A stretch of 64,000 bases of DNA from Paramacrobiotus metropolitanus (lineage: Eukaryota > Tardigrada > Eutardigrada > Parachela > Macrobiotidae). Location: contig NW_026570244.1 in NCBI RefSeq assembly GCF_019649055.1, forward strand, positions 62,001 to 126,000. The letters run 5' to 3'. A model generated the notes under the pieces. That model was not told where the DNA came from. It did not search any database and saw nothing but the letters and a program-made list of their open reading frames with translations. Made by a program: the position numbers and the translations under genes. This document shows positions 23,798 to 58,819 of this stretch, one piece after another (within the stretch, counting starts at the first letter, position 1; the number at the start of each line of letters is the position of its first letter).

Positions 23798-23958
23798 TTA
23801 AGGAAAATGGGCCGGTACGTGGTGTCAAAAATGGGACACATACGCTAAAACTTTGGCTTTCGCGCACTCCGAATAACTTTTTTGTAACACTTTATGTCAT
23901 TCTAAAGCTAACGAGTTATATATATTGTTCTGAAAACTGTACACGCGTGCAACATCCG
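23798..23958. mobile_element. Foldback element FB4, left part before LINE insertion
   Basis: It starts TTAAGGAAAATGGGCCGGTAC and follows FB1 base for base in outline up to CAACATCCG. The element then resumes at 25199-25400 after a 1240-bp LINE-B insertion. Confidence 0.82.
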
Positions 23959-28403: not shown

Positions 28404-29377
28404 TCAGGAGAGATGAGACGATATGATGGTGGAGAACTGTAGCCGTAAGTCGAAATCCCGTGATACATAGCGTTCAAAGCAGCGGCTTCTCCAGTTGCCT
28501 TGCGCCTTCAGTACATCTGCGGGTACATCCAGTGAATGGGCATAGGTTGCTGCGCCCCGCCGAAAGGAGTGTGCAGATACATTTGTTGTTGGTAGGCCGG
28601 CATGGCGTAAGGCTGTCCGTAAAAGTGAGTTGAACCTACTGGCGGACAAAGCAACAACGGAATTATGACGAATATAAGACAATAATGCGCGGTCTGGGGA
28701 GAAAGGCAGCTTAGTAACCGCAGTATTAATCGCATTAGTTGGACACAACGGATGTGATGCGGGCAATTTGGAATCGGAATGCGTACCGTGCAGCTTTTAA
28801 ACTTATTAGTTTTAAGCTGTTTTACCGTGAGCTCTGTCACGTTTTTGCCGAAATTTACATCACCCATTGTTAAGTGCAACCCACGATCATTAAAAAATAA
28901 ATTGGACGATCGTAACAGGGAAAAGAATGCAATTAAGCAAGCTGCCCAAAAGCAATAGCGAACACGTCGGGGCAATTTAGTCAGCTGGTTATGTATTGCA
29001 TAGAGATCGTCTACTGTTATTGTGCGCCGCCGTAGTGGGAGTTCACAGCGCTGCCGCTGAACTCCACGTAACGCGCGTTTGATTGTAAAATGCGTTAAAT
29101 TCGGCGAATCATAGCCGTGGAAATTATGATAAGCAGCTACACTGTTAATGTAATTAATTATGGAAGTATACTGTAGCATGCGAGAAAGGTACGATATATA
29201 TAAGCATACGGTGTGGACCGAAGACGGTAATGCCCGTAAGTTATGAACGCGGCAAAAATTTTCAAAACGGCGCCACTGAGAAAAACGGGTGCGCTGCGTG
29301 GTGCTCGCCATCCCATGCATCTGCAAATCCTTCAATCGTTGTTCCAGATACTGGGTTTGGGTAGCTACGAAGAACAT
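28404..29377 (-). pseudogene. DIRS tyrosine recombinase, one frameshift
   Basis: The first frame (29377 to about 28765) carries the N-terminal core-binding region and the first catalytic Arg in LIAFFSLLRSSNLF (R155). Coding then shifts near 28751-28766 into another frame ending at 28404. That frame contains SAHSFRRG (H-x2-R; residues 66-69 of the second frame), a GNW in place of GHW (residues 90-92), and the nucleophile Tyr in ERY (residue 100). All catalytic residues of a DIRS-type recombinase are present, but in two frames. After the shift the first frame runs on for about 80 meaningless residues. The enzyme would integrate the circular element. The frameshift may be a real lesion or a sequence error. 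It overlaps the end of the RNase H frame by about 115 bp. Confidence 0.85.
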
Positions 29378-30020
29378 TTTGCGGTAAGCTCGGACCAGGG
29401 AATGGCTTCAAAAAACTTTGCAAAAACCGGTTTACGTGAATAGAGGATTCACTTAACGGACTTAGCGCGTCTGCTAATACATTTGTGACACCCGCTGAAT
29501 GTACAGCCGCGACGCGAAAATTAAATTTTAAACTGGCGTAGTAAACTGCTTTTAACCAGAGTAAAGCTTCAGCATTTTTTGTGCTACCTCTATTTATAAA
29601 GGCGACAGTCTGGGTGTTATCGCTGAGAATCAGAACTTTGGAGCCAGAGAAATACTGTGCCCATACCAGCACCGGAAGACATGCTGCGATTAGCTCTAAA
29701 AAGTTTATATTTTTGCGCAACGCAGGGCTAATTTTTGGTGAAAGCATCCAATTGCTCTTAAAGCCAGTTGGAATAGCTGACTCCATAATATCTGCCCAAC
29801 AACCTGCTAACCAGCGGCCGTTAAACACTGCGCCGAAGCCGGAAAACGATGCGTCGGTGGAGATCGTCATAATAGGCCAAATTTTTCCCAACGTAATTGG
29901 GCATAAACCATTGACCGTAGATGAAAACTTGTACCACCAAATTAACTCTTTACGAAGAAGTTTTGTTAACCTTAGGTGGTCACAAGGACGTTGAAGCTTA
30001 GCGATGCAGTCATAAAACAT
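29262..30020 (-). CDS. DIRS RNase H domain
   Basis: The 252-residue frame continues the RT after a frameshift. Acidic active-site motifs are visible in order: STDASFSGFG (D56), FLELIAA (E at about 109), LSDNTQ (D at about 133) and NVLADALS (D at about 174). The first residues match the RT-to-RNase-H connection. It degrades the RNA strand during reverse transcription. The 3' end overlaps the recombinase start in another frame, normal for this element class. Confidence 0.85.
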   Translation of the reverse strand: MFYDCIAKLQRPCDHLRLTKLLRKELIWWYKFSSTVNGLCPITLGKIWPIMTISTDASFSGFGAVFNGRWLAGCWADIMESAIPTGFKSNWMLSPKISPALRKNINFLELIAACLPVLVWAQYFSGSKVLILSDNTQTVAFINRGSTKNAEALLWLKAVYYASLKFNFRVAAVHSAGVTNVLADALSPLSESSIHVNRFLQSFLKPFPGPSLPQNVLRSYPNPVSGTTIEGFADAWDGEHHAAHPFFSVAPF

Positions 30021-30051
30021 ACGCGCAAACGTTCTGGCGCCATAGATAGCT

Positions 30052-31173
30052 TTACTTGCAAAGCCATGTGGCCGGCAATAATCTGTAGCTCTTTTTTGTC
30101 AGCTTCTGCTTTAAAGAGTACGATTTTGCCAAATCTGTTAAAGCTGCTATTTTATCAGCCGGTAACTCTAGACGCTCATTGATCGAATCAATGATGTAGC
30201 CCAAGAATTGTACACGGTGAGTAGCGGTTACAATTTTTTCTGCTTTAACTTCAAAACCTAGCGACAATAGCAGGTTTATCAAATCCCGCTGGGCTGCTTG
30301 GCAAGCTTCAAGTGTGAAAGCTATTATTAAAAAATCATCTAAATACGCAATAACGAAATGCCCACGTCGTTGCATCATGCGTACAATCGATTTCGAGATA
30401 CGATTGAATATGTGTGGAGCATTGGAAAGACCAAAACAAAGGAAATTGTCAACGAAATAACTTTCCTCTTCGCCTTCAAACTGCCACTTAAACCCTTGTA
30501 ACTGCCGATGTGCCGGATACACCGGCACCCAGCGGTATGCTGACTTAATATCAGTAACCGCAAAATAACAGCCCGGCTTAGCCATTTCAAGTACGAGATC
30601 GATAGAATCAAATGAGAAAGATTCTACCTCAATGTACGAGTTTAATGAGCAATCAAATGGCCGGCTGCAATCAGTGATCGGCCTGGGAATTAATGATCCC
30701 TTCTTGGGAACGGCGCCAATAGCATGCACGCGAATTGGTTTATGAGCTTGTTTTGATAAACGTCCCATATTCATCTCTTCGCGAAAAAGTTTGTCAAGCA
30801 GAGGCTTAGTGCTATCATTCAAGGCGCTCACATAATTAGCACAAGAAGCCGGTACAATAACATCAATATCAGACACCAGCTTGAAGCCTTCTGCAATACC
30901 CATTAAGATAAAGACATCATCTTCGTCGCAGTGCAGTTCTCTCTCCCAGACACTAAGTGAACGGGTTAGAGAACACCTGTGAAGGAGATCTCTGTCAACA
31001 GCCACAGCCTTGCCGCCAATTAACAAAGATGGTGCGTTAATTTCGGCGGCAAGGGGTAAATCTTTACATGTGACTGGGACCGGCGTTGCGATTGTTTGCG
31101 CTTTACATGTGACTGGGACCGGCGTTGCGATTGTTTGCGCTTCTACCACAGTTAACTTCGGTGGTTGGTACAA
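30052..31173 (-). CDS. DIRS reverse transcriptase, frame broken near its end
   Basis: The 373-residue frame shows RT motifs: PKKGSLIPRPITDCSRP (about 156-172), the first catalytic Asp in VTDIKSAYRW (D208), FGLSNAPHIF (248-256), and the YLDD box (277-280). The last dozen codons are out of frame. The expected reading resumes after a shift in the T6 run at 30092-30097 and shifts again before the RNase H frame. The N-terminus contains an in-frame tandem duplication of 39 bp encoding AQTIATPVPVTCK twice. The true start is uncertain because RT in these elements may be translated by shift or re-initiation after gag (115-bp gap). Confidence 0.88.
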   Translation of the reverse strand: MYQPPKLTVVEAQTIATPVPVTCKAQTIATPVPVTCKDLPLAAEINAPSLLIGGKAVAVDRDLLHRCSLTRSLSVWERELHCDEDDVFILMGIAEGFKLVSDIDVIVPASCANYVSALNDSTKPLLDKLFREEMNMGRLSKQAHKPIRVHAIGAVPKKGSLIPRPITDCSRPFDCSLNSYIEVESFSFDSIDLVLEMAKPGCYFAVTDIKSAYRWVPVYPAHRQLQGFKWQFEGEEESYFVDNFLCFGLSNAPHIFNRISKSIVRMMQRRGHFVIAYLDDFLIIAFTLEACQAAQRDLINLLLSLGFEVKAEKIVTATHRVQFLGYIIDSINERLELPADKIAALTDLAKSYSLKQKLTKKSYRLLPATWLCK

Positions 31174-31287
31174 GGCACACGTGTGGGAAGCCGGAACACG
31201 TGTTTGCTGTGCAGCGGTTATCTTGCCACAAAAGCAACATGCATGCCGGTACCGCTTTGGTGGTTTATAGGGACGAAAAAGCTGCTT

Positions 31288-32358
31288 TTAATAATTTTGG
31301 TATTTTCTTCGTTCCTTCGTGTTTTGCGTGAAAAATTTGTCACACAACATAGCACGTTCCTGCACGTTAGAAAGGTCAAACTTTTCAAAATCTGCCTGAC
31401 GGCGAAATTCATCGTCAAATTTTAAAACTGATTCATCGTTGTAGTCGCGATAGCGCACCGTCAGAAATTCAAGATATTCGAGATATTCTTCGAGAGATTT
31501 CTGGTACACGCCCGACACTGTTCTGGCTAATCGTAATGCGGTCCGCATACTGTACACCAGAAACTCAGAAAAAGACAAATCAGTAGGCGTCGGTCGACGC
31601 TTTTTGCCATTAGCGTTTACCTTGTACGGCGCCTGATGGTGCGGCCGTGGTAGGTTACGCGCATGCGAAGAAAGCTTTGTGTATCTACTCCGCGACTCGG
31701 AACGAGTATGTGAACGTGATACAGAGCGGCTAACGGAAGACTCACCCGATGAAGACTGGTCCGAGTGGTGACGGTGGTTTTCATTGTGGTGACGTGGCTG
31801 GCCGTTGTGGTGACGATGCTGCTCGCTGTGACGGCTTGGTTGAGAGCTCTGATGACGGCTACGCCCGCGATGACCACCGCGTCCGGATCCACGAGAGGCA
31901 GCAGAGTGATGGCTGGAGCGATGCCCTTGTTGGCGGCTTTTATTGATCACGTCCCGCGCATCCCGTACCGGAAGGGAATCAGCGATGAAAATCTCAATGG
32001 CAGTCTGATCGGCGTGGTGGTTAATAAATTGCAAATTGCCCGGAAACCGTTGGCTTTTGCCCAGCATGAGTAGTTTCGCAACCGTGGTATAACCTGCGGA
32101 GTTCAACAGCTGAATAGTTTCGGTGGTTAAACTGAGGCTATCCTTCAACTGGTCAAGTCCGGCGATGGCGTACAACGACTCTGGGCTAGAGCTGGTTTCC
32201 GGGGCGGCTTCGGGCGGGGCTGGAGAGTTGAGGTTGAAATGACCATATAGGCGCTGAAGAAGATCACTGCGGACACCATCCACTTCGAGGCCTGCCTTGC
32301 GGCATTCCTCCTTGAGCTCAGGCACCTTTAACTTCTTCAAGGCCGTTTTGGAAGACAT
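31288..32358 (-). CDS. DIRS gag-like protein with SAP domain
   Basis: The 356-residue protein starts MSSKTALKKLKVPELKEEC. Residues about 8-42 fit a SAP motif (LKVPELKEEC..AGLEVDGVRSDLLQRL), a helix-turn-helix fold known to bind A/T-rich DNA. A His/Ser/Arg-rich low-complexity region follows (about 145-235, RH.. repeats, then SRSxSRS). A C-terminal helical region with many Tyr, Arg and Phe residues ends the protein. Position upstream of RT identifies it as gag. The SAP domain suggests it binds element DNA or chromatin, which is inference. The start codon lies 210 bases inside repeat A's boundary. Confidence 0.82.
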   Translation of the reverse strand: MSSKTALKKLKVPELKEECRKAGLEVDGVRSDLLQRLYGHFNLNSPAPPEAAPETSSSPESLYAIAGLDQLKDSLSLTTETIQLLNSAGYTTVAKLLMLGKSQRFPGNLQFINHHADQTAIEIFIADSLPVRDARDVINKSRQQGHRSSHHSAASRGSGRGGHRGRSRHQSSQPSRHSEQHRHHNGQPRHHNENHRHHSDQSSSGESSVSRSVSRSHTRSESRSRYTKLSSHARNLPRPHHQAPYKVNANGKKRRPTPTDLSFSEFLVYSMRTALRLARTVSGVYQKSLEEYLEYLEFLTVRYRDYNDESVLKFDDEFRRQADFEKFDLSNVQERAMLCDKFFTQNTKERRKYQNY

Positions 32359-32567
32359 GATTTATGATCAGCGATAAAGCACAACGCCCGAGATCAAAAC
32401 AATACTAAAAAATTCGTTAAAAATTAATGAAACAGTGGATTTACGAACTTATTTGTCTGTAACCATTTACTACCGTACAGATTCAAAACACAACGAGTGT
32501 TAGTTGAAAAATATTACACAAGGTAACAAAAACTGCTAAAGGTCACACGAAGGTAACTTGCAGTAAA

Positions 32568-34590: not shown

Positions 34591-34843
34591 GCGTGCTACA
34601 TAACGGTTTTTTTCCGGAATGAACCATTTAAAGCTGCCTTCTTCAAAGTTATTATTTTGTCAAAGAATTAATAATCGCGCAGTTTTTACAAAAAATGAAG
34701 AGTGCATTTCCTGATATGGTCAAAGAACCGCCTCTTGTATTTCGACACAGGTAATTATTGTAATCAATTCCCAAAATCAATTTCTTAATTTATCTTGTTT
34801 AAATTCTACCTTCTTTGTTTCAAAAATAATCGAAAACATACGT

Positions 34844-35653
34844 TTGTCAGTGTTAATAGAACAATGGGTTCTTGATATACTTGGTCCGTCTAAGGTCCAA
34901 GTATTTCCAGTCATACATAAAAAGAGCAACAAAAAATCTAACGGAAAAAAAGCCGATACAAGCATGAATTGTACTCCTGCAGAACCGCTGAAGAAAGATC
35001 CAGTTACAGGTATAAACTACCCACCTGAGAATTTATTTTCTAACAACAAATGGTGGATGAGAACTATGCAGCTTTCCGAAAAAGATAAAACTGACATCGA
35101 GAACGATTATTTGATTTCTATAAATGTCATCGATGCAGCTATATTCTTGCTGAAGAAGAAAAACCGATCAAGGCTGTGCGAAGCAAAGCCGTTTTTTTCT
35201 GGACTCAACTACTTGGCCGAAATGCACCTGCAACCAACTGCCAACACATGTTCTTTCGGGGATTCCGCTTTGCAAATATTGTTCGTAAATGGCAACCATT
35301 TTCAGCTAGCGTTGCGCAAAGACAAAGAAATTCTTATATACGACTCTATATCCCGAATCCATACTGACCAGCAAAGTCTTACAAAGATCGAATGTTCAAG
35401 TAATTGTGAAATGGAATTACTGCATCCATCAGTACAAAGCCAGCTTAATGGAGTTGACTGTGGAAAATTTTGCATCGCTTTTGCAACAGCAATCCTCAAC
35501 GACTTAAATCCGGTAGAACTGTCGTTTGAGCGTGGCAGTATGCGAAGGCATCTCATTCAGTGTATTGAAACCGGCAAAATTACAGTATTTCCTCAACTTA
35601 AAGGTCACGACTCTTCTCGTACAGTTTCATGGATCCACAAGATACAATTGTGA
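34844..35653 (+). CDS. Ulp1/SENP-type cysteine protease (C48 family)
   Basis: Of 269 codons, the C-terminal half carries the Ulp1 catalytic signature: His152 in GNHFQLAL, Asp167 in LIYDS, and Gln200-x-Asn-Gly-x-Asp-Cys206-Gly in SQLNGVDCGKF. This family cleaves SUMO or related modifiers and is often carried by eukaryotic transposons. The residues before about 100 are Lys-rich with no clear domain. The frame opens with TTG and the first in-frame ATG is only at codon 41. The start therefore probably lies in an upstream exon; 34695-34750 (MKSAFPDMVKEPP..., donor cag/GTAATT) is a candidate but its phase is one base off. Only 31 bases separate the stop from the next gene, unusual for a host locus and more like a compact element. 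Confidence 0.82.
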   Translation: MSVLIEQWVLDILGPSKVQVFPVIHKKSNKKSNGKKADTSMNCTPAEPLKKDPVTGINYPPENLFSNNKWWMRTMQLSEKDKTDIENDYLISINVIDAAIFLLKKKNRSRLCEAKPFFSGLNYLAEMHLQPTANTCSFGDSALQILFVNGNHFQLALRKDKEILIYDSISRIHTDQQSLTKIECSSNCEMELLHPSVQSQLNGVDCGKFCIAFATAILNDLNPVELSFERGSMRRHLIQCIETGKITVFPQLKGHDSSRTVSWIHKIQL

Positions 35654-35684
35654 TCGAAATCAAGACAGCCTCCGAAATAACACC

Positions 35685-38482
35685 ATGGCAACCAACGATG
35701 GTAAGCCCAATTTAGTACATTAATAAAGAACTGAAGAGCAACTTACGAGTATTTTCCCTAACCAAAAAAAACCAGATTCTTACAGATCGTATACGGCATT
35801 TTGTTATCCTTTAAATGAAATACATATTTAGCAATGGCCAATAAACTCCAGCCTGGAAGTATCTCTTTAATCTTCGAGAACGAACAGCTCCCTGATCCTG
35901 CCACGGTGTTTCAAGTGGCCAAAACCGAGAAAAGTGGGGCATGGGTGACGCTTACCCTGAGCGATGGGAATACGCAATCAAACAGTATGTATAAGGCACA
36001 CATGAAACACCTACCTTGAAGTCTTTCCAAAACCATATTATGATGAAGCGTAATAAAAATGAATTAACTTTAGAAACATGTTGATATTTAACAAAACTAG
36101 TTATCCTAATTTGCAGAATTTAAAATTCGAACTCCGAATATGGAAAAGACAGGAGAAGACATCGTACTGTCCTTCGTGCAAATTGAACAGGCTTTCCTCC
36201 TGGGTAGCGGAAGCAAGTGAGAAAACATACACTCTGTTCTGTTATCACTGCTACTATTTTAGTTAACTCTGTTCACCGAATAGTGAGGCAGTATGTTAAG
36301 AAACTGGAATAGTTATTAATACTAGAAACGTAGCGCCGTGATTAGCAATTTTTTTTGTACATCGTGACGTTCTGCAAATCTATCGGGCGGATACAGTATT
36401 GCCGTATTTATGCACTTACAGTGCCGGACTCCCACATAGCCATTGAAGCCACATTAATTTTAATTTCGTTGTAACACTAAACGAAAAAAACGTTGCAGTA
36501 CAATGCGCAATAGGGAAACGAGTAACTGAAGTACCACTACTGTACAGTGCATCAATATCCTACTTGCTTATTTTATTTTTCTTATTTTCTTTTTTTCTTA
36601 TTTTCCTATTTTATTATTTTTTGCTTTTCTTATTTCCTTATTTCCTTATTTCATTATTTCCTTATTTTCTCATTTTCTCATTTTATTAATTTTGAATATT
36701 TATTTTCAGTGATGTTAAATTTTTATTCTTCTGTACAGGGTGATGCAAAGAACACTTTGTACCTATTTTATCCAGACCTATTTATTAATTAACTGGTTCA
36801 GAGAAACATGACTGGCTACAGAGAGTAAAAGGAAAAGTAGTACCGGGTGGCTGAACAAAATGGAACAAAAACTGAGAGGGCCATTTTGTTCGTCCATCCG
36901 GTAATTATTTATTGCAGTGTAATACAGATAAAACGTCCTAAAGACACAAGAAAAAGTTCGCTCACTGTTCGGTATACACTGACAACAATAATTAAGTGTC
37001 GGTTACCTATATTTAGGTTACGTGTGTCTATTACCAACCTAAAGCTGACAAATGACGTCCAAAAACAACCGGACTGCAACTTCCGGGAAATTTTAACGTG
37101 TCATCGTTCATCGCCAATTACGAAAGGAAAAACTTTCGCGAACACGACAAGTACAGCAAAAATATTCTCTTAAATAATCTTAACTTAACTTACTCCAACG
37201 TTTTAATCAAACATATCCACGAATATATCCAGTAATCTGTTTCCAGACCGCTCATCTTTACTGTCGTTCACACCACGGCGCCATATAGCACAGCACACGG
37301 TGGTGAAGCCATTAATATTATGGTTTCTGATCATTCGGGAAGCGCAATACTGTCATCTTTAAACAGTGACGTGTCAAAGCTGCAGCAACTTATTGTTGGA
37401 AAGGTAAATAGTTTCCGATGTCGCTGTCCCAAATTTTTTTAAGATTTATTAAAGATATATCAATTCTAATTTATTTGTATATGAAGTTAACCGATTTCCA
37501 TTTAACTATTTCCATATATATAAAAGGTGACCTTCGACAATAAGCCGGAACCTTTTCAACACTAAAACAGTCACACTGCTTCTGTAGACTTATCGGATGA
37601 AATTCTATGACGTCAGCGAACTGAAGGCGAACTTCCGAAAGGAGGCATCAGTATTGGTCCAATTTTATACGACAGCGAAGACACTAATTGAGTCGGCAAT
37701 TGAGAATCCAGTTGACATCGAAACTATCACGCCACTATCACAAGCTCATGAGCATGCCGATCTAAAGCGTAAGAAGTAAATCTGTCACAAATTTAATATG
37801 AAAATAATAATTCTATAACATGACAATACTGATATGACAATACTGACTGATAACAGAAACAATATTTCCTTTTGCGGCATCAAAATTTACGTTATAATAA
37901 TATAAGCTAACAGTATAAGGTTTACTGAACACTACTGCATGTGTCTTTAGACTACATGACCTTCGTGGAAAGTGTGGGATACTTGGACAACCAGAAGAAA
38001 ACAAGGAACGGAGAGCGAGCATTTCGCACATTAAAAGTGTGGGACTGCTCGCAGGCCTTGCCCTACGAGTTGATTTATGGGGGCACCTTGTAAGCCGCAA
38101 ACTGCATTTTTTTAAACAACAAACCATAAAAATTGCATATGCTAAATTACCTTTAACTAAATTATCTTTAAAGGCTACCATCTTCATCCCAGCCGTCTAC
38201 GAGAAAAAAATTGTTTTCTTTCACAACCTTATGCACACCAGCTACAACAATGGTGGTCTCCAATCCGGCTACAATAAAACATATTTTTACATTTCTGAAA
38301 GTTCACCGGCACTGACCATCAAGAACTGGGCACTGGAAATCGGCCTGATGGACCCGGACTCGGAAGAAGAAGTTCACACAGCTAACGCAACCGACATTGC
38401 CACTAAACGCCCGCTTGTTGGGGAGGCACCAACCCAAACAACCAAAAAAGGAAGAACTTCAGCTGTACCCCCCGGAAACTGA
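35685..38482 (+). CDS. RPA70-like single-strand DNA-binding protein, seven exons
   Basis: Exons that agree in phase are 35685-35700, 35832-35984, 36117-36216, 37247-37403, 37588-37768, 37951-38089 and 38174-38482. Donors are GTAAGC, GTATGT, GTGAGA, GTAAAT, GTAAGA and GTAAGC. The first three exons resemble the RPA70 N-terminal OB fold (LQPGSISLIFE...VTLTLSDGN). The next two match DNA-binding domain A (GGEAINIMVSDHSGSAILSS, then KLQQLIVGKTYRM). The last two match domain B (YMTFVESVGYLDN...ALPYELIYGG, then an ISESSPALTIKNWALEIG end). Length is about 352 residues, without the zinc domain C. The last junction is one base out of phase. RPA-like genes are known cargo of Helitrons. The final exon is repeated in the array downstream, which ties this gene to that repeat. 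36217-37246 contains a pyrimidine tract (36560-36690) and an alternative exon-like frame at 37017-37173. Confidence 0.7.
36547..36695 (+). repeat. Pyrimidine-rich simple sequence in RPA-like gene intron
   Basis: TTTCTTATTTTCCTTAT-type iterations of about 10 bases form a one-strand pyrimidine tract. It lies in the long intron before the domain-A exon. Confidence 0.7.
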
Positions 38483-38821
38483 CTACCGAACATTCGCTGA
38501 CGACAAAAAGATGCTGCCTCCCCGCAGAGTATTCCTAGTTCATAAACTGAACGCTAGCCCTTATTGTACATAACATAGAATACTACTCCATTGAATACAC
38601 CGCAACTTATGCATAATAAAATTTTCTGCTGATACAGCCGCAAGTTGGCCGCAGAGCATTTCCTGTCATTTGACAAATCCAAAAAACTAAGCAAAATCTG
38701 TTGTCCTACACAAAAACCAACTTTTTTCAAACAAAATGCTTCCTCGAATAAGCTACAGCCTTTGAAATCTAAACTAATTTTTTAACCCAGTCGTAAGCCA
38801 ATATTCATCCGTGCTCAGCTT

Positions 38822-39394
38822 GTTATATGAATACTAAACATCTCTTGCAGAGGTTCGGCCTCTCTTCATTGTCCCGGGTGATCTCAGCTCCCGATAAACC
38901 GATTTTCATGCTTTAACATATTCTAGAATCCTTTCAGGGCGGTGGGTGTTGTGAGAGGACCTTTTCCTATTTTAAGAATTCTCAGGCCGGTGGTCACTCA
39001 AAAGCTTGTTACCATGGTTGCCATAGGGCTAACATGAGCTGACCTGTTACCACGGGCACGTTATACTGCACTTGCACAAGAAACAGTTTTGCTTCGCCTG
39101 TTTTTCTTGTGGTTAACCGACGGAAACCGTGCTTATGTCAATCAATTCATAATTTGATATTGGATCTTTTTAGATTTTGGTAAGATCTGAAATGAAGTCG
39201 AAAAGCACATTACCGTTTTCTAGTATTTCACTTGATTCACTGTCGCACCTTGCGGCCCAATGCACTGAGCTGTATCAACAGGTCGGTCAATCATTCACAT
39301 AATCATAGCAGCCCTGTTCACTAAACAGTAATACTACGACGTAATTCTACGACTTCGAGTAACAAAAAATCCTAACTCACTTATTTACATTACC
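38822..39394 (+). repeat. Array unit H1
   Basis: Follows the junction CAGTCG...CAGCTTGT directly with tatatgaatac, with no U unit between them: the empty-site form. Nearly identical to 45787-46337. Confidence 0.8.
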
Positions 39395-39432
39395 CAGTCG
39401 TAAGCCCATATTCATCCGTGCTCAGCTTGTTA

Positions 39433-39991
39433 TCTACATCCGGATGTTCTTACGCTATTGCGCGGATGTTCTAACGCTATTGCGCCATCGATACGCCCCA
39501 AAAGGGAAGGAGTAGTCCCAAAAAACAAATTGTTGCCATGGGCCCCCATAGACATACATGGTAAATGCATTGTCTGTTCGCGGACCGTTAGGAAAAACCG
39601 AGACAGACCGCGGCCTTCAGCATCGGCACGTTACAAATTATTGAAAATTTAAAAAACATGGGAAAAAATTAATCGCAGTTAATCCCACCAGCGTGATCGG
39701 TATACCTCGTATTCTTTCATATACTATATTTCTTAGGTTTTCTTAGGTGTTCTCAGGGTTCTTAGGTATTCTTAGGTTTCTTAGGTTTCTTAGATTGTTT
39801 TGGCTTCTTAGTATTTTTAGGTTTCTTAGGCTTTTTTAGGGTTCTTAAGTTTTCTTGGATTTTCTCTTTCTTAGTTTTCCTAGTTTTCTTAGCGGCTGGG
39901 ACCAATGCGATCAACCTTTGCGAAATGTGGATTGCGTAACAAACTTGCGCCGCAAAAGTTTGTGTACGGATGTAGATCCCGTAATCTGGTT
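39433..39991 (+). repeat. Array unit U1 with TTTCTTAGG minisatellite
   Basis: The most divergent U unit, starting TCTACATCCGG and ending 'cggatgtagatcccgtaatctgg'. It contains a degenerate tandem array (39715-39895) of TTTCTTAGG, the reverse complement of the CCTAAGAAA motif in the MITE at 12195. Confidence 0.7.
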
Positions 39992-41913
39992 ATATGAATA
40001 CTAAACATCTCTAGCAGGTGTTCGGCCTCTCTTCATTGTCCCGCCTCATTTCAGCTCCTACTAATCCGATTTTCCTGCTTCAAAATATTTTAGAATCCTC
40101 TCATGGCGGCGGGTGTTGTGAAACTAATAACCTTTTGCTGTCTTAAGAATCGTGTGGCTAGTGGTCACTCAAAAACTTGTTACCATGGATTCCATAAGGC
40201 TAACATGGGCTGGTCTGTTACCACGGTCACACTGTACTTACTATATTATAGTCCGTGCGCCAACACGAATTACCTACAAAGTTTACCCTTTACCTACTTA
40301 CACCGAAGCTCGAAAAACGCCTGATTAGCTGGGCTTGGATGTAGGTCCATTTTTGCTCGAAGTCTGTCGCTGGGCGGTGTCGAAAGCCGTTACACAGATG
40401 GGCGTACCTTGTAACGGGTCTAAGCGACGCCCTTTTACTTACAAACTTCGGTTTTCTACGATTTTAATTGGTGGGTCAACATTTGAGTTAGATCGAAGCT
40501 GCCCACCGCCAATGGCAAAATTCGAAACCACGTGGTATAGATTCAGTACTTCAAGCTATCAAGAAAAATCACGACCTGCTTGCTGTGTTCTTTACTTATT
40601 TTAATCCGAGTATTCTTTCACATTCAGTTAATTTTTGAAATATTTATCCACATAAATGGCCCTATGAAAAGCTGTTCCGTATGAAAAGCTTTCTCATTTA
40701 ACTATTGCCGGAGATCGTGCAGGGTAGCCTGCTAACTGGGTTCCCAGTTGTTTGCGACTGAGCTGTTATCGTTATCACTGTTACAGGCATGTGTTGTTTA
40801 CCCTGTACCCACTCAGATATTTTGTGGATAAGTATTTGAGCAAGTTATGCAGATATGCTAAGTAGCTGGAAAAATTTCAGATCTTTTCCGCTTTCTTGGA
40901 AAATCTGCAAAACATTGTTGTTAACGTCTCTTCAGTTATCTTGCGGGGAACCCTGCGTGCTGGCTAGCCAGCTGGCTGTTGTTAAAGCAGCGGTACCTAC
41001 TGGGCACTGTGTTTGATTCTTGCCAGCCTTTATTTATTGGATAGCCATGCATGGTAAGGAAGACAATCGAATGATTATTTTTATTATTTTATGGCTGTCA
41101 TAGTATCGAACTACTTCCAACCAAAACTTTCAGAGCATATTTTGATTACTCTTTTTCATCGGGCTGCGGGTTCCCGCTTATCTGGCTACCCAGAGAAAGA
41201 TATTTGAAAAATAACTGCCGTTTTGCTGCTGTGCTGTGTATAAGGCCAGCTTGGTGAGATTTTTAAGTTGCGAGCTAAGGTATTTATATTTTTGACGTCA
41301 GAAAAAATGTCTCAAAAGCAGTAATTTCAATAAATATCGGCATCAAACAACATGTATAAATTGTACATGTCAGCGTCGCCTATTGAAGTAAGTGCGTCCT
41401 GGCTGTTTTGCGCACACCGTCCGGGTTAACACGGACAGACTTACACGCAAAGCCGTGAAAACGGGCGCGGTTTTGCATACTTTGTATGTAAGTGCACGCT
41501 GAATTCGGTGTAAGTAAGTCCCTGATGCGCCTATGCGCAATTACTGTATTCTCTCGTACTGTAACAAGACACAGCTTGTTAGAGTACGAGCTTTTTGTTC
41601 TTTTGATACAGTAAAGTGAGTTGCAACTACAGTCTTAGGAAAAAGTAATAAAATAGCGCTGCATTTACTGGGGTGGTAGACTGGTAGTAAACACCAAAAA
41701 CACTCAAATTTGACAGTTAAGCTCCATATTATTAGAAAGGCGGAAAAAAATTCCTTGGGGAAGCTGCAGAATACCATTTCCGTTTAAAATTAAATTTTCT
41801 CCGAAATCACAAACTGATCCGGCACCGATGCAGCAAAATAATTTACAGTAATGCCCAAGAAAAACGCATAACAATGCACAAGAAAGCGCAAAAGCAAACC
41901 AAACGCTAATAAG
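39992..41913 (+). repeat. Array unit H2 plus unrelated filler
   Basis: Starts tatatgaatactaaacatctc and follows H to about 40330. The remaining sequence to 41913 contains no gene or recognised repeat and may be a separate insertion or a diverged tail. Confidence 0.5.
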
Positions 41914-41950
41914 TAGTCGTAAGCCAATATTCATCCGTGCTCAGCTTGTT

Positions 41951-42478
41951 AACTACATCCGTAACAGCCATGACGGCCTTTGCTAAGAAAATTATGTTTG
42001 GCCGAACGGGTAGGCCGATTTTGACGCGGTAAAGTGCGCCAGAATCGTCGCAGCGAAGCGGGTGATGTTGCGCTATTGCCGACCTGATGCGCCTCAAGGG
42101 GGAGCACGACCCTCAAAAAACAAATTGTTGCCATGGGCCTGCAAGTCTCGGCTTCCGACCTCGCTCCAAACCGGTTAACATAAAGTATAGGCACACGAGC
42201 TTGCACGAGAATCATTTGCACGGCAGATCGGCCCTCTCGGCCTCGGCTCGAATAATATTAGGAAAAATAGCACAGAACTGTACCGGAACAACCGTGACGT
42301 TCTAACCTAAAAAAGCAGTGTTTGACTGAACGGGTAGGCAGATTTTAACGCGGTCAAAAATGGCAGAATCGCCGCAACGACGTTATGTTTCTTATGTTTT
42401 CTTACTTTTTTTCCTAAATTTTTTTCGAAACAAATGCGCCCCGAATCTGGTTACGGATGTAGTCCTCCGTAAACTGGT
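41951..42478 (+). repeat. Array unit U2
   Basis: Bounded by ACTACATCCGTAAC and GTTACGGATGTAGTCCTCCG...CTGG, flanked by TTA. It is directly followed by U3, forming a tandem pair. Confidence 0.78.
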
Positions 42479-42480
42479 TA

Positions 42481-42884
42481 ACTACATCCGTAACAGCCGT
42501 GACGGCCTTTGCTGAGAAAATTATGTTTGGACAAACGGGTAGGCCGATTTCGACGCAATAAAGTGCGCCAGAATCGTCGCAACGAAGCGGGTGATGTTGC
42601 GCTACTTCCATTCCGATGCGCCTCTAGGGAGAAGCAGGAGCCCCCAAAAACAAATTGCTGCCATGGGGCTGCATGTCGCGGCTTTGGACATCGCTTCAGA
42701 CTAAGTATTGTACTAGTCAATGCAAAGTGTTGTGACTTATCTTCTCAGTTGCGTAAAGGAAACAACGCGCCCCGGCCACCGGCCTCGAAGCGCAAAAAAA
42801 CGAAATTAAATCGCCAAAATTAACGCCGATCACTAAACCCGACGCCGACGAATTAGTTACGGATGTAGTGCTCCGTAAACTGGT
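42481..42884 (+). repeat. Array unit U3
   Basis: A 404-bp U unit with the same ends as U2 and shared interior ('aattatgtttgg', 'gggtaggccgattt', 'aacaaattgYtgccatgg'). Confidence 0.78.
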
Positions 42885-43611
42885 TATAGGAGTACTGTAC
42901 ATCTCTTGCAGGTTTTCGGCCTCACCTCTTTGTTACCTATGTTCTCGGCTTCCACTGAGCCGATTTTGCAGCTTTAAATTTTCACAGAATCTTTTCAAAA
43001 CGTAGAGTAACACAAACCTAGTGGTTTTTTTACTCTTACAAGTAGGATAAGCCCAGTGGTCACTCAAAGGCTTGTTGCCATGGATGCCATAGGGATAACA
43101 TGCGCTTGTCTCTCACCACGGGCAAATTAGGGTTTACATGTAACAAGACACAGCTTTGGCTTCGCCTCTGCGTTCCTTGTGAACCACATACCGAGTGAAC
43201 AAATGATTCGGTTAGTTTTAAAATAAAATGAAAACTAGCAGCCGAGGCACAAACGAAACAAACTTTAATTGCGAAAGGTCAACATCTGAAGAACCGGGCA
43301 TTAGATATTGGCCTAACCGACCTCAACTCATACGAAAAAGTGCAAACTGCTAACGTAATAGATGATGCTAGTAAACGTCCGCTTGTTGACTAGTCACCAA
43401 ACTAGATGCAGGAACAGAAAAAATTTCAGCTGATACAAACGCAAGTTGACCGCAGAGTATTCCCTGTCACCAGTCAAATCTAATAACCTGAAGGCGATCT
43501 GTTGTCTTATACTCGTATTAAAATTAACTGGTTTCAAACAAATTCATAACTGCTATTGAATAACTGCTACTTCCTCGAATACAACGACAAATAAATCGAT
43601 CCGATAAATTG
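42885..43611 (+). repeat. Array unit H3 with R block
   Basis: H sequence to about 43210, then an R block. It ends near a solo right-end fragment of a U unit (43612-43640). Confidence 0.72.
43286..43393 (+). pseudogene. RPA-like gene 3' exon remnant in the array (R2)
   Basis: The frame LKNRALDIGLTDLNSYEKVQ, continuing to KRPLVD and a TAG, aligns with the IKNWALEIGLMDPDSEEEVH...KRPLVG end of the RPA-like protein. About 36 codons are open. The similar stretch continues into the 3' flank ('gctgatacaaacgcaagttgRccgcagag'). Confidence 0.8.
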
Positions 43612-43642
43612 GTTGCGGATTTAGTCCTCCGTAAACTGGTTA

Positions 43643-44040
43643 ACTACATCCGTAACAGCCGTGACGGCCTTTGCTAAGAAAATTATGTTTGGGCGAACGG
43701 GTTGTCCGATTTCGACGCGGTCAAGTGCGCCGGAATCGTCAGAACGACGCGGGTAATGTTACGCTATTGCCAACCAGATGCGCCTCGAAGGGGCAGCAGG
43801 AGCCTCAACAAACGAATTGTTGCCATGGGCCTGCAAGTCTCGGCTTCAGACTTCGCTCCGCACTACCTAATTAATGCAAAGTGTTGTGAACAATGGTGAT
43901 GTTCTTAGAGGCGTAAAGCACACGGGCTCGCCTCGGCCCCCGGCCTCGATTTGTAAACAAACCAATAAATCGCAAAAATAAGACGCCGAATGCCAAACCC
44001 CAGGAATTTATTTACGGATGTAGTCCTCCGTAAACTGGTT
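43643..44040 (+). repeat. Array unit U4
   Basis: A 398-bp U unit with conserved ends. The interior matches U3 and U5. It is followed by tatatgaatac of H4. Confidence 0.78.
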
Positions 44041-44593
44041 ATATGAATACTAAACATCTCTTGCAGACCTTCGGCCTCTCCTGATTGTAACGCATGATCT
44101 CCGCTTCTACTCAATCGATTTTTCTGCTTCAAATTGCACAAGAATCCTCCCAGTGCGGGGAGTGTTCTTAGACTACTGACCTTTCGCCATCGCGATAGCG
44201 GTAGGCCCAGTGACCACTGAAAATCTTGTTACCATGGACGCCATAGGGCTGAGATGGGCAGCTCTGTTGCCACGGGCATGATAAATTTGAACAAGAAAAA
44301 TTTTTGGCTTCGCCTCTGCGTTTCTTGTGCTACCCTGGCTGAGTGAACACTTAACTAATCACTTCGCCCACTTTTAAGCCACCACAGCAGCTTCTCAGAT
44401 TCAGTAGAATTCAGTAGAATAAGCCGAAACTTAGCAACTGCGCCATGAACCAAAAAACTTTAGGGGCAAAAGGGCAATACGATCTTTCACGATTCTCACC
44501 GCAGGCAACCATCCTGAATAAGTAGCTGTCTGTGTCTGCCATTATGACTTTGCACCGCAATCCAACACATGAAGATACGACGTAATTTTAAAT
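44041..44593 (+). repeat. Array unit H4
   Basis: An H unit without an R block, ending at the junction agtcgtaagcc. Confidence 0.72.
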
Positions 44594-44627
44594 AGTCGTA
44601 AGCCAATATTCATCCGTGCTCAGCTTT

Positions 44628-45404
44628 TATATGAATACTGTACATCTCTTGCAGGTTTTCGGCCTCTCCTCTTTGTTACCTATGTTCTCGGCTTCCACTG
44701 AACTGATTCTGCAGCTTTAAATTTTCACAGAATCTTTTCAAAACGTAGAGTAACACAAAGCTAGTGGTTTTTCTACTCTCGCAAGTAGAATAAGCCCAGT
44801 GGTCACTCAAAGGCTTGTTGCCATGGATGCCATAGGGCTAACATGCGCTTGTTTTTCCCCACGGGCAAATGAGGGTTTAATAAGAAACAGCTTTGGCTTC
44901 GCCTCTGCGTTTTTTGTGGACCACATACCGAGTGAACAAATGATTTAGTTAGTTTTCAAATAAAATGAAAACTAGCAGCCGAGGCTAAAAACGAAACAAA
45001 CTTTAATGGCGAAAGGTCAGCATCTGAAGAACCGGGGATCAGATATTGGCCTAATCGACCTCAACTCTTAAGAAACAGTGCAAATTGCTAACGTAATAGA
45101 TAGGGCTAGTAAACGTCCGCTTGTTGACTAGTCACCAAACTAGATGCAGGAACAGAAAAAATTTCAGCTGATACAAACGCAAGTTGACCGCAGAGCATTC
45201 CCTCTTACCAGGTAAATCTAATAAACCGAAGGCAATCTGTTGTCTTATACTCGTATTAAAATTAAATGGTTTCAAACAAATTCATAACTGCTATTAAATA
45301 ACTACTGGTTCCTCTTATACAGGAATAACTGCTAACCATGAAATCTTAACTACTGTCTCCTCGAACACACTGCAACTTTTGAATTTTAAACAAGTGTATA
45401 TGCC
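44628..45404 (+). repeat. Array unit H5 with R block
   Basis: It follows the junction directly with no U unit (another empty-site form) and closely resembles H3 including its R block. Confidence 0.75.
45024..45131 (+). pseudogene. RPA-like gene 3' exon remnant in the array (R3)
   Basis: This is the same segment as 43286-43393, with an in-frame stop (tcttaag) and other changes, so it is no longer open. It shows that the RPA exon is part of the repeated unit. Confidence 0.75.
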
Positions 45405-45442
45405 CAGTCGTAAGCCAATATTCATCCGTGCTCAGCTTATTA

Positions 45443-45786
45443 ACTACATCCGTAACAACCGTGACAGAGTAAGGTTAAAAAACCTATGTTTGGGAGAACG
45501 GGTAGGCCGATTTCAACGCGGTCAAGTGAGCCAGAACTGCTGCAACGACGCGGTAGATGTTACGCTATTACCGAGACGATGCGCCCCTAGGGGAAAAAAG
45601 GGGACCGGAAAGGAAAGTTGTTACCATGGGACTCCATAGACATACATGGACAAGTTGTTCCCATGTGCGTAAATGACAAGACACGCCTCGGCCAGCGGCC
45701 TCGATGCGAACAAAAACAAAATTAATTAATCACCAAAAGCTGACGCCGATAAATCGGTTACGGATGTAGTCCTCCGTAAACTGGTT
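45443..45786 (+). repeat. Array unit U5
   Basis: A 344-bp U unit with the usual ends and a shortened interior. Confidence 0.75.
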
Positions 45787-46405
45787 ACATGAATACTAAA
45801 CATCTCTTGCAGAGGTTCGGCCTCTCTTCATTGTCCCGGGTGATCTCAGCTCCTGATAAACCGATTTTCATGCTTTAACATATTCTAGAATCCTTTTAGG
45901 GCGGTGGGTGTTGTGAGACTAATGACCTTTTACTATTTTAAGAATTCTCAGGCCGGTGGTCACTCAAAAGCTTGTTACCATGGTTGTCATAGGGCTAACA
46001 TGAGCTGACCTGTTACCACGGGCACGTTATACTGCACTTGCACAAGAAACAGTTTTGCTTCGCCTGTTTTTCTTGTGGTTAACCGACGGAAACCGTGCTT
46101 ATGTCAATCAATTCATAATTTGATATTGGATCTTTTTAGATTTTGGTAAGATCTGAAATGAAGTCGAAAAGCACATTACCGTTTTCTAGTATTTCACTTG
46201 ATTCACTGTCGCACCTTGCGGCCCAATGCACTAAGCTGTATCAACAGCTCGGTCAATCTTTCACATAATTATAGCAGCCCTGTTCACTAAACAGTAATAC
46301 TACGACGTAATTCTACGACTTCGAGTAACAAAAAATCGGAAACAGCTTATTTCTAACGAAGTTGCAACATACTGCATGATTTGACGGCAACAAAATTCTA
46401 AAAAT
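45787..46405 (+). repeat. Array unit H6
   Basis: Nearly identical to H1, differing by a few substitutions and a short indel near 45918. It is followed by a degenerate junction 'agtcgcaaaccaatatgcatccg'. Confidence 0.8.
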
Positions 46406-46440
46406 AGTCGCAAACCAATATGCATCCGTGCTGAGCTTGT

Positions 46441-50391: not shown

Positions 50392-52840
50392 TATTCATAC
50401 AAGGTAGCCTCGCGCATCCGCGCTCGGCACTTAAGTATTGGATAGTATTGGCATTGTTTTGGAAAGGTCATTATAAATATATAAAGGCTGACTTTCGGAA
50501 TTTTTGACGTTCTGACAATTTTAATTTTTCACGTTCTGAAGTTCTGATGGTCTGACGTTGTAACGTTTTGACGGTCTTCCGTTCTAACGTTCTTACTTTA
50601 TGACGTTTTGCCCTTCTGACGTTATGACGTTCTGACGTTCTGTTCTGACGTGCTGACGTTATGACGTTCTGACGTTCTGGCGTTCTGGCATTCTGGCGTT
50701 CTGGCGTTCTGACGTTCTGGCGCTCTGACGTTCTAACGTTCTGACGTTCTAACGTTCTGACGTTCTGACGTTCTGGCATACTGACGTTCTAACGTTATGA
50801 GTTCTGACGTTCTGGCGTTCTGACGTTCTAACGTTCTGACGTTCTAACGTTCTGGCGTTCTGGCATTCTGGCGTTCTGGCGTTCTGACGTTCTGACGTTC
50901 TGACGTTCTGGCGTCCTGACGTTCTAACGTTCTGACGTTCTGACGTTCTCGCGTTCTGACGTTCTGACGTTCTGACGTTCTGACGTTCTGACGTTCTGAC
51001 GTTCTGACGTTCTGACGTTCTGACGTTCTGACGTTCTGACGTTCTAACGTTATGACGTTCTGACGTTCTAACGTTCTGACGTTCTAACGTTCTGGCGTTC
51101 TAACGTTCTGACGTTCTAACGTTCTGACGTTCTAGCGTTATAACGTTCTGAATTTATGACGTTCTAATGTTCTGACGTTTTGACGTTCTAACGTTCTAAC
51201 GTTCTGATGTTCTTACTTTATGACGTTCTGGCGTTCTAACGTTCCGATGTTTTTACTTTGTGACGTTCTGACGGTGTTACGTTCTGACGTTCATACGTAT
51301 TGAATTTCTGACGTTTTGACGCTCTGAAATACGTATGAACTTTTGCATGACGTACAGTAATAATAATATATAATTCTACCTAAAGAGCAAGTATGTATGC
51401 ATCCGCTATAGTCTCCGTGGTTACAGTCATTATTATGTTTTAAAGCACTTTTTATTGCTGTACAGTGAATACTTCTTCGAGTGCTCTTTACGTTTCCTAT
51501 ACTTAAGACCTGGTGAAACCATCTTTTGACCACTGGTTATTAAAAACAAACAAAAATCTATTGGCACACCTATGGAAAATATGGAATTTTTTAAGACCAA
51601 GCTGGACTTAAACTGACCACGAGTTATCGAGGAGTTAAAAACGGCGCATAAATACGCTTTGGTCGGTAAGCTTGTATGAATATAAAGACAAGCTTACCGA
51701 CCAAAGCGTATTTGTGCGCCGTTGTAATAGGCTCGTCAACGCGTGGTCAGTTTAAGTCCAGCTTGGTCTTAAAAAATTCCATATTTTCCACAGGAGTGCC
51801 AATACATTTTTGTTTGTTTTTATTACCCAGTGGTCAGAAGATGGTTTCACCAGGTCTTAAGTATAGGAAACGTAAAGAGCACTCGAAGAAGTAAGTACTG
51901 TATTCACTTCACAGTTATGAAAAGCCCATAACACAATGACTGTAACCACGGAGACTATAACGGATACATAAATACTTCTTTTTTAATGTAGATTGTAGAT
52001 GAAAGATTGTTTTGTGAGCAGCAAATTACGTAAACCTCCATAAAAGGTAAAGTACATTGCCCAGTTACCGCCTACACAGTATCTATACGTCAGAACGTAA
52101 AAACATCAAAAGTCAGGACGCCAAAAGACAGAACGTCAGGTAATCCGAACGTGAAAAATTAATAACGTCTGAACGTGAAAAATCAAAAACATCAGAAATT
52201 CATAACGTCAGAAATTCAGAACGTCTGAATATCAGAATGTCAGAATATCAGAACGTCAGAACGTCAGAACATTAGAACGTCAGAACATTAGAACTTTAGA
52301 AGGTGAGAACGTAAAAAACTAAAAACGTCAGAACGTCAAAAGTTCAGAACGCCAGAATATCAGAACGTCAGAACGTTAGAACGTCAGAACAGCAGAATGT
52401 CAGAATGTAAAAAATAAAACGTCAAAAGGTCAGAACGTGAAAGATTAAAAACGTCAAAATGTCAGAAATTCAGAACGTCAGAATAACAGAACGTTAGAAC
52501 GTCAGAACATCAGGATGTCAGATTGTGAAAAGTGAAAAAACGTCAGAAAGTAAGAAGGTCAGAAGTTAAGAACGTCAGAAGGTCAGAACGTTAGAAAATC
52601 CGAACGTGAAACATCAGAACGTCAGAACATAAGAGCGTAAAAAATTAAAACCTTGGAACGTTAATACGCCTTATAAAACACTACTACGAAAGCGTAGATC
52701 CGATTTCAATCTTAGTCTATTTCCTTTATATACTTACTTCTATTTATAATGACCTTTCCAAAACAAAGCCAATGCTATCCAGTACTTAAGTGCCGAGCGC
52801 GGATGCGCGAGGCTACCTTGTCTTTATATTCATACAAGCT
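50392..52840. repeat. 2.4-kb palindrome with satellite arms
   Basis: The outer ends are exact-looking inverted repeats: 'caaggtagcctcgcgcatcc' (50400) against its complement near 52815-52835, extending about 100 bp inward. The arms are satellite DNA: TTCTGACG/TTCTAACG units at 50500-51330 and CAGAACGT units in opposite orientation at 52090-52660. The centre (about 51460-51910) is a near-perfect inverted repeat of unique sequence meeting at about 51680. The whole is one nested foldback. The TTCTGACG-type units vary mainly at one A/G position. Frames in the arms (for example 50471-50779) are translations of the satellite. Confidence 0.87.
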
Positions 52841-56058: not shown

Positions 56059-57593
56059 CTGCTAACTTTAATGGTTACATCGCTTATTACACTGTAACAA
56101 TAACAAAATTCCACATCATTCACGTTCAGCTAATTTAAAAGCAAAATACACGTCTTCCTTTTCAACCATGTCGCTGAATGTACCGAGAACAGAAACTGCA
56201 TTTCCTCGTTGAATCTCGATACCAATTTTCTGCCGCAAAAACTCCCCTGACCGAGGGTTGCCCGTACAGTCGCTGATTTTTCTCGACAGCTCTTTAAAAA
56301 ATTTCTTCGTCCGTGGTCCGAATGTACCCGTGGTTTCAAACGCCAACGGTTGGACGATGTAACGGTCTCCCAACCCGCTATACTTTCCTATTTTCCGGTC
56401 TTCGCGAATTTCCGCTGCACTTCCCGGCACTCTAGATGTTTGGGCAATGTACGTTTGGGCGAATGTATCTGCCACGGTTACATCCCATACTAGCGGTTTG
56501 CCATTTTTCCAAGGAAACGCTGTCACTCCGTCGGGCCTCTTTCCGTCGCCTCTGTCTAAGCCCGCCGGCTCCAGTGACGATGGCACTTTTGCCGAGCTCA
56601 ACGCGCGCTTGGTTGCTTCGTTCAAAGCAGCGTGGACACCATGCCTTCCTTTCGCTAACTTGCATACCAATCCATGGTGGCCGAGACTGTCTACATCACT
56701 GCCACACCGGCAAACATGTTGCTGGCATACCGGAGCTCCAAGCCGCCGCGCCACGGCAATTCGTAAATAAGTGTCCTCCAGTAAATTGCCAAATATTGAT
56801 ACAGGCAAAGCAGCCAACCAGGCACGCGACTCCGGTGAGGATGCAGCCAACAAACGAGCTGAGGTAAATACATCGGCATTCTCCATCATGCGGGTTGCTG
56901 TCTGGGTGTGCTGTAATGCTGTCCATACTGACTGGTAACGGCGTCTTTCCATCTGCGGGGATTCCAGAGAAAAACGTCCAGTCCACTCTTCGGTTAGCTG
57001 ATTGGCCTTGTCTTTTACGGTGGCGTTGCCTGTGATGTTGCACACCATGTCGGCCGCTCCGTAAATTGATGAGGTGTACGCGGCCAACGCTACGCCCGCT
57101 GCGCTGATCAGTCCAAGGCCTCCAAATTTTGTGGGTAAAGAGGCTTGCTCCCATACTGGGCTGGACATAGCTACGTTAGTCAGCTGTTCCGTTTTCACTC
57201 GGATGACTTCATCAAATTTCTTCAGTTCATCTGGGAATTCCCAACACGGTGACGTTCTAAGAAGATACAACAATTTCGGCAGGGACAAACAGTTCTTTAG
57301 CAAAAACAGACCCTGGTGTGAAGGCAATATACCGAGCTGGTCGGCAAGCACTTGTGCTTGACCGACCTTTCTCATCAACGCGCCCGATATCGCTTCCTTC
57401 AGCAAGGGAGAGCCCAGCAGCTCAAGTTCTTCCGGTTTGGAAATTCGAATGTCCGGTACCGCTTTCAGAAATAACTGGGTTACTTTTTCCCGCTCTCCAT
57501 GAGTTCCACCATCAACAAACAATTCGCACTTGGCCGTGTTAAGTCGCAAACCCACTGCGGCGGCTGCTTCTTGGAGATTGACCAAGTGATTTA
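56059..57593 (-). mobile_element. LINE-B copy nested in LINE-A, 12-bp target duplication
   Basis: AAGTTAACCAAA (minus strand) flanks the insert, at plus 57594-57605 and 56047-56058. The insert is 5'-truncated within the RT palm (GLRLNTAKCELF) and carries the rest of the LINE-B protein plus 3' UTR. Confidence 0.92.
56116..57593 (-). CDS. LINE-B reverse transcriptase C-terminal part (longest copy)
   Basis: About 492 codons of LINE-B are open. They cover the end of the RT palm (GLRLNTAKCE) and a thumb segment (VWEQASLPTKFGGLGL). A C-x-C..H..C finger follows (CRCGSDVDSLGHHGLVC), then RHG...NEATKRAL, GKRPDG...LVWDVTVADT and the C-terminus EIQRGNAVSVLGTFSD. The frame is fused by chance, in phase, to about 65 upstream codons of LINE-A. 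A naive prediction therefore gives a 557-residue chimeric protein. No RT catalytic Asp box is present. It is a dead retrocopy with a well-preserved frame, hence fairly young. Confidence 0.85.
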
Positions 57594-58141
57594 TTTGGTT
57601 AACTTTATCCAGAAGCTTGCCCAGTCTCCAGGATAGCGTTGTTTCCCCGCATTTTGTTGCCACACGTGTCCTGATGGTCAGTTGATTGGCGTTACGCAAA
57701 CTGTACGTCTTGCTTTTCTCTCCAAGGTTAAGCATATCGGTAAGGTATGCTGGTACGTTGTGCGGCACCGGATGTTTGATCTTGTACAACCAGATGGCCT
57801 CCTGGTGCCGCCATCACGTGAACAGTGGGATTATTCCAAAACGGTCCATCAGAAGATTACCTGGCGCTGTCGGGTAGTTTGCAATGGCTCGAATAGCGTT
57901 ACGGTGTGCTACTGCAAGCTTCTCGCGCAAGGACGCAGACGCGCTGCTCCACACTGTAAAGCAGTAGTCCAGACGAGACTGGACGAACGCGTAGAAAAGT
58001 CCAAAACGCTGAGAGTCGCGCAGACCGTCTTTCGCACGATTTATGAGAGCAATTCCATGACTAACACTTTTTTGGACCGTAGTAAACTGTTCGGTCCATT
58101 TTAGATGCTGATCAATTATTACTCCTAAGTGCTTAACGGTT

Positions 58142-58815: not shown

Positions 58816-58819
58816 GTGC

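Follow-up and report, generated by a model that had tools for sequence, protein, structure and literature searches.

A truncated Helitron-like copy with a Ulp1-type protease, an RPA70-like gene and a two-module tandem array in the tardigrade Paramacrobiotus metropolitanus

What kind of element would bring together a SUMO-type protease, a gene for an RPA70-like protein and an array of repeats that contain pieces of that gene? The question is raised by a locus in a 64,000-nucleotide window of the Paramacrobiotus metropolitanus genome (contig NW_026570244.1, C24:62001-126000 of the assembly), where an intact Ulp1 open reading frame (ORF; 34862-35653, + strand) is followed by RPA70-like exons and an array. 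Based on searches of the 170-Mb assembly, we consider it very probable that the window contains a decayed, 5'-truncated copy of a rolling-circle transposon of the Helitron superfamily, along with a tandem array of it, and that the fuller copies of this transposon encode a Rep-helicase protein (RepHel) fused to Ulp1 and an RPA70-like protein. A preliminary description of this stretch, made from its letters alone, had proposed a Helitron-like element with a Ulp1 protease; this is supported by the order Rep-PIF1-Ulp1 in four copies, except that the protease is not a separate gene but is fused to the helicase.

The next-best matches of the window Ulp1 in the genome are on contigs C290 (61% identical) and C475, C175 and C35 (42–43%). 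On each of these contigs the Helitron_like_N model matches the same strand, approximately 3–3.5 kb upstream of Ulp1, and translation gives Rep, PIF1 helicase and Ulp1 in that order on one strand. Helicase and Ulp1 share a reading frame in all four copies, and a single frame of 1476 amino acids spans all three parts in C35. The Rep of C35 matches PF14214 (E-value 2.2e-22) and its helicase PF05970 (E-value 2.7e-29); the protein contains an HUH motif (WYRHEYQKRGAIHTHLVIW), a Y2 motif (YLAKYVAKSE) and a helicase Walker A motif (GCAGTGKS). HTH and YLAKY motifs are present in C35, C475 and C290, as well as in C10 with NTH replacing HTH, and the fuller copies have a zinc-finger-like part at the N-terminus of RepHel. 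The HUH Rep and fused PIF1 helicase of C35 are features of the Helitron superfamily. Pfam identified no endonuclease family, apurinic/apyrimidinic (AP) endonucleases included, in the C-terminal 710 amino acids of C35, the C-terminus of which is Ulp1; among the PF14529 matches listed, none is near the Ulp1-Helitron loci. C35 and C175 are 98.5% identical across 8 kb inside the ends of module A (see below), which points to recent movement. RPA exons are located 3' of Rep-PIF1-Ulp1 in C35, C175 and C475. The collinear arrangement that the preliminary description had suggested searching for is, therefore, present in the assembly, with Rep and Ulp1 paired on four contigs and RPA downstream in three of them.

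The window ORF opens with SVLIEQWVLDILGPSK, residues with which the Pif1-type helicase ends in C290 and, in a slightly altered form, in C35. The C290 helicase-Ulp1 ORF matches the window at 34823-35641 with 60% identity (tblastn), and no further Rep or helicase match was found by tblastn upstream of 34823 in the window. As the ORF starts with residues of the helicase end, the window copy is cut off inside the helicase, and the Ulp1 ORF, whose first codons still encode Pif1-type helicase residues, is the C-terminal part of a Rep-helicase protein. An independent Ulp1 gene of the host is ruled out, since the reading frame begins in the helicase. Judged from the sequence, the window copy is a 5'-truncated, decayed Helitron-like element. 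Rep and helicase had been expected outside the window or in another copy; they are present on C35, C175, C475 and C290, although a C-terminal remnant of the helicase is left in the window. The idea that the gene pair is part of a large Helitron-like element is supported by the fuller copies, but the copy in the window is truncated and its RPA gene frameshifted. The features of this part are:

34823-34900, + strand: helicase C-terminus remnant, where the truncated RepHel gene breaks off on its 5' side (tblastn)
34994-35653, + strand: Ulp1/SENP-type protease domain and stop codon (alignment with four copies; PF02902 in C475; AlphaFold model of C475)
35297, 35342, 35441 and 35459, + strand: catalytic His, Asp, Gln and Cys, respectively (alignment)

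The four catalytic residues had been named in the preliminary description with numbers offset by 6, and they are invariant across five copies (the window and four others). The window Ulp1 by itself is below the Pfam cut-off (E-value 0.03), and the C475 copy is above it for C48 (PF02902). A model that AlphaFold built for the window Ulp1 with five sequences was set aside (pLDDT 50, meaningless fold matches). The C475 Ulp1 was modeled from an 18-row alignment headed by C475 (pLDDT 74, pTM 0.77). The first Foldseek matches of this model are SENP5, SENP1 and Ulp1 (E-value 1e-6), and it aligns with SENP1 at a Z of 14.9 and a root-mean-square deviation of 2.9 for 170 residues. A CE-clan fold with a His-Asp-Gln-Cys arrangement is characteristic of the Ulp1/SENP (C48) family; from this fold, the protease is predicted to remove SUMO. 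The ratio of nonsynonymous to synonymous rates (dN/dS) between C475 and C35 is ∼0.10 for Ulp1 by the YN00 method and 0.05 for Rep by NG86; in these pairs, synonymous sites are close to saturation. We conclude that Ulp1 has been kept by purifying selection. More Ulp1-like domains are found at C117:264355, C41:67913, C43:630937 and C11:1799633, with no Helitron Rep beside them among the Helitron_like_N matches listed; these domains probably ride on other transposon classes.

The RPA70-like gene runs in the same direction as Ulp1, as had been described. A possible first ATG at 35686 is ∼31 bp past the Ulp1 stop codon, and the first certain exon begins at 35834:

35686-35700, + strand: possible extra first exon (splice sites read from the sequence)
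35834-35984 and 36117-36216, + strand: exons of the N-terminal domain (tblastn of exons, conservation with C35 and C175, splice sites read from the sequence)
37247-37403 and 37588-37768, + strand: DBD-A exons (alignment with C35 and C475; the profile finds RPA70 structures)
37951-38089 and 38174-38482, + strand: DBD-B and C-terminal exons (exon tblastn, alignment, profile)

The hand-spliced proteins of the window, C35 and C475 have an RPA70N-like start followed by DBD-A-like and DBD-B-like parts. No RPA exon was recognized by Pfam, and phmmer with one hand-spliced protein found nothing; only a profile of all three succeeded. The top match of this profile in the PDB (177,635 sequences) is 4gnx, a fungal RPA70 (E-value 5e-4), followed by yeast RPA1 (E-value 0.29); against a profile of human RPA70 DBD-A/B, 141 columns were aligned (E-value 1.6e-4, probability 51%). 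Compared to the C10 copy, the DBD-B exon of the window has a 1-bp deletion near 38064 that breaks the frame. The last exon recurs at 43286-43399 and 45024-45137, with in-frame peptides 58% and 50% identical (tblastn E-values of 3e-8 and 7e-6, far above chance) and flanking DNA 76–77% identical to the 3' flank of the RPA gene, in agreement with the preliminary description. The outcomes that it had named as contrary to a mobile origin, a single-copy pair of RPA and Ulp1 or array units lacking RPA sequence, did not occur: RPA sequence is present at other loci and in array units.

The array itself (38825-46440) is made up of 11 modules that follow one another head to tail, all on the + strand and joined at TT without a spacer; they belong to two types, A and B. 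Its four end motifs were obtained by fuzzy matching and delimit the following features, on end motifs unless stated otherwise:

38483-38824, + strand: 3' flank of a B-type coding element, ending in AGTCGTAAGCCAATATTCATCCGTGCTCAGCTTGTT (fuzzy matching of end motifs)
38825-39431, + strand: module 1, type B
39432-39991, + strand: module 2, type A
39992-41950, + strand: module 3, type B with additional internal sequence
41951-42479, + strand: module 4, type A
42480-42885, + strand: module 5, type A
42886-43641, + strand: module 6, chimaeric, with a B 5' end, an A 3' end and the RPA relic at 43286-43399
43642-44040, + strand: module 7, type A
44041-44628, + strand: module 8, type B
44629-45441, + strand: module 9, type B, with the RPA last-exon relic at 45024-45137 (end motifs, exon tblastn)
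45442-45786, + strand: module 10, type A
45787-46440, + strand: module 11, type B, with a 3' end (CATCCGTGCTGAGCTTGT) that forms the outer 3' boundary of the array

Modules 1 and 11 share 97.6% identity across 549 bp. Module A has AACTACATCCGTAAC at its start and GTTACGGATGTAGTCCTCCGTAAACTGGTT at its end; it has 13-bp subterminal repeats that are perfectly inverted with respect to each other (CTACATCCGTAAC and GTTACGGATGTAG), and a hairpin at its 3' end (z -3.1). Module B has ATATGAATACTAAACATCTCTTGCAG at its start and AGTCGTAAGCCAATATTCATCCGTGCTCAGCTTGTT at its end, and no hairpin folds at this 3' end, which is the real 3' end of the element. The RPA gene had been assigned to a repeated, probably mobile unit; the array modules do recur genome-wide, but they are of two kinds that appear to transpose as an A-B composite. 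Modules abut each other in each of the four possible orders, always precisely at TT, and do so on many contigs. The genome contains 216 B 5' ends versus 151 junctions of an A 3' end with a B 5' end and 74 of a B 3' end with a B 5' end, so that B almost never starts alone. The genes are located inside module A in C35 and C175, which start at an A 5' end and run on into a junction with B, and inside module B in C10 and the window.

The ends of the mobile unit were derived from six solitary copies, a set selected for a free A 5' end with an A-B junction nearby. Each follows TT, begins with A(A/T)CTACATCCGTAAC, has one to three A modules followed by B and stops at a common 3' end, CATCCGTGCTGGGCTTGT, beyond which nothing is shared; no target duplication is obvious by eye. 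The solitary non-autonomous A-B elements L080-L085, of ∼0.95–1.9 kb, share their ends with the array modules and would lend themselves to estimates of age and activity. Two independent families that merely alternate in the array are ruled out by these solitary copies, which are A-B composites. The unit that transposes, thus, seems to take its 5' end from module A and its 3' end from module B. In a listing of 100 A 5' ends, 72 are joined to a preceding module (65 to the 3' end of a B, 7 to that of an A), and 28 are solitary, the latter after TT in unrelated AT-rich sequence; as the search pattern included TT, these ends are not independent proof of a TT target. With a motif free of TT, true A and B 5' ends are all preceded by TT, as in Helentron insertions. 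Rather than the canonical Helitron1 ends (5' TC, 3' CTRR, insertion between A and T), the element has A(A/T)CTACATCCG after TT at the 5' end and GGGCTTGT at the 3' end.

In a tree of 12 Reps, Helraiser, represented by a fragment, falls within a five-row Helitron1 clade (100/100), and the Ulp1-group Reps are outside it, on a branch of their own with weak support (62/69) and long branches; the OTU-type clade is apart (100/100). Two Rep-helicase elements of another group in the same genome, L078 (C37:850801-856800) and L079 (C123:128501-134000), have an OTU protease right after the helicase, the slot taken by Ulp1 here.

Several alternatives were weighed against a Helitron-superfamily element with its own Ulp1 and RPA. 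The locus could belong to a Helentron, with an AP-endonuclease RepHel and one of the known Helitron deubiquitinases. Helentrons carry RPA as well as OTU and VTD proteases (PMC4067079, PMC9741609), insertion at TT is Helentron-like and OTU-Helitrons are present in this genome. However, the protease has the CE-clan residues and SENP fold, and is neither OTU nor VTD with its Asp-x-His motif (PMC9741609); no endonuclease model matched the C-terminal protein of C35, and the Ulp1 Reps group with neither OTU-type nor Helraiser-type Reps in the small tree. We regard this alternative as very unlikely. Ulp1 and RPA might instead be host genes captured by, or neighbouring, a Helitron, with no role in transposition, as Helitrons do capture genes and Ulp1 domains are also found on Mutator, Ginger1 and Crypton transposons. 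This is improbable, if marginally less so, because the helicase-Ulp1 fusion is kept among copies that are 42–61% identical in protein, the catalytic residues are invariant with a dN/dS of ∼0.1 and RPA follows in A-borne and B-borne lineages alike. The least probable reading takes the array for an ordinary satellite, or for a segmental duplication that has nothing to do with transposition: long arrays, recurring unit types and the near-identity of units 1 and 11 would fit it, but not the junctions in all four orders at TT on many contigs, nor the solitary copies with the same ends in unrelated AT-rich sites.

Some observations weigh against the Helitron-superfamily element as we describe it. 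Ulp1 was detected in four of six Rep copies; it has been lost in C10, and none was seen in C336. The RPA identification is weak for each copy and depends on three hand-spliced, divergent proteins, and the DBD-B exon was not found in C35. The element ends are placed where copies stop agreeing, without an empty site, and the selection estimate carries the near-saturation given above.

By analogy to known Helitrons, Rep would nick the 5' end of the element, the helicase would peel off one strand, which RPA would coat, and Rep would join the peeled strand to the target at TT. Action in trans is the most likely mode for the protease, which may remove SUMO (or ubiquitin or NEDD8) from Rep or from host replication or chromatin proteins at the site of transposition; alternatively, it could process the RepHel-Ulp1 chain itself. 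Arrays may grow by rolling-circle read-through or by Rep re-insertion at module ends, and end-to-end runs would be possible because joined units retain TT at each junction. Several 5' ends before one 3' end are known from fungal Helitrons (PMC5148889), and concatemer models exist (PMC12628747). If a SENP/Ulp1-type protease is confirmed in the place of OTU or VTD, three isopeptidase classes would have been recruited to one kind of element, which would argue that the mechanism of rolling-circle transposons includes the removal of ubiquitin-like tags. The A-B composite with its arrays would offer a clear case for the fusion of rolling-circle elements and the formation of satellite-like arrays.

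The window contains other repeats. A DIRS-like retroelement (28404-32361, - strand) has a SAP-domain ORF, a reverse transcriptase (PF00078, E-value 2.9e-20), an RNase H-like part and, by eye, a tyrosine-recombinase-like ORF. Three related ORFs (23934-25121, + strand; 56116-57813 and 58313-58828, - strand) look like the C-terminal ends of R2-type non-long-terminal-repeat retrotransposons, with a zinc motif and an endonuclease-like end by eye. The near-identical segments 14126-14692 and 17189-17755 form an inverted duplication of ∼0.6 kb or more, and 8-bp tandem arrays are found at 50531-51327 (ACGTTCTG, ∼100 copies) and 52188-52628 (AACGTCAG, ∼55 copies).

Among known systems, Mutator (KIU), Ginger1 and Crypton elements have likewise acquired Ulp1/C48 proteases, but are DDE or tyrosine-recombinase elements and not rolling-circle transposons. 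Helraiser has TC...CTRR ends, unlike the element here. This canonical Helitron (PDB 7lcc) shares the PIF1 helicase by sequence (E-value 4e-31) and a Rep of the same Pfam family, but has no protease and belongs to a different Rep clade. The published Helitron proteases are OTU and VTD (PMC4067079, PMC9741609). In the parts of the open-access literature seen that join 'Helitron' and 'Ulp1', Ulp1 is placed in Ginger1, Mutator, Crypton or Polinton-type elements, and no Ulp1-bearing Helitron was found; subscription papers and Repbase were outside this search, and novelty is provisional. VTD- and OTU-Helitrons (PMC9741609) are similar as RepHel elements that encode a papain-like isopeptidase, but the protease here is a CE-clan SENP/Ulp1, and VTD carriers are endonuclease-bearing Helentrons. 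Proto-Helentron-Pi and Helitron2 (PMC4067079; Helitron2 as cited there) also have a RepHel without endonuclease; the former differs in carrying a SET gene and in having ends of the Helitron type (CTAG) that lie between A and T, and the latter in its single ORF. The element closely resembles Helentrons (PMC4067079), which likewise have an HUH Rep, a PIF1 helicase and an RPA gene, insert beside TT and occur with tandem derivatives and non-autonomous partners. As in Helentrons, no target duplication is obvious, here as judged by eye, and module A resembles them in its subterminal inverted repeats of 13 bp and in the hairpin at its 3' end. They differ in that Ulp1/SENP is at the C-terminus here, where no AP endonuclease was found, the true 3' end (module B) lacks a hairpin and the Rep lineage is separate in the 12-Rep tree. 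The element is, thus, near Helentrons, but a SUMO-type protease takes the place that the endonuclease has in them, and its Rep lineage is separate. Tentatively, it may even represent a third rolling-circle lineage besides Helitron1 and Helentron, having a RepHel with a SUMO-type protease and an obligate A-B composite of two formerly separate elements, of which B would rarely if ever move by itself.

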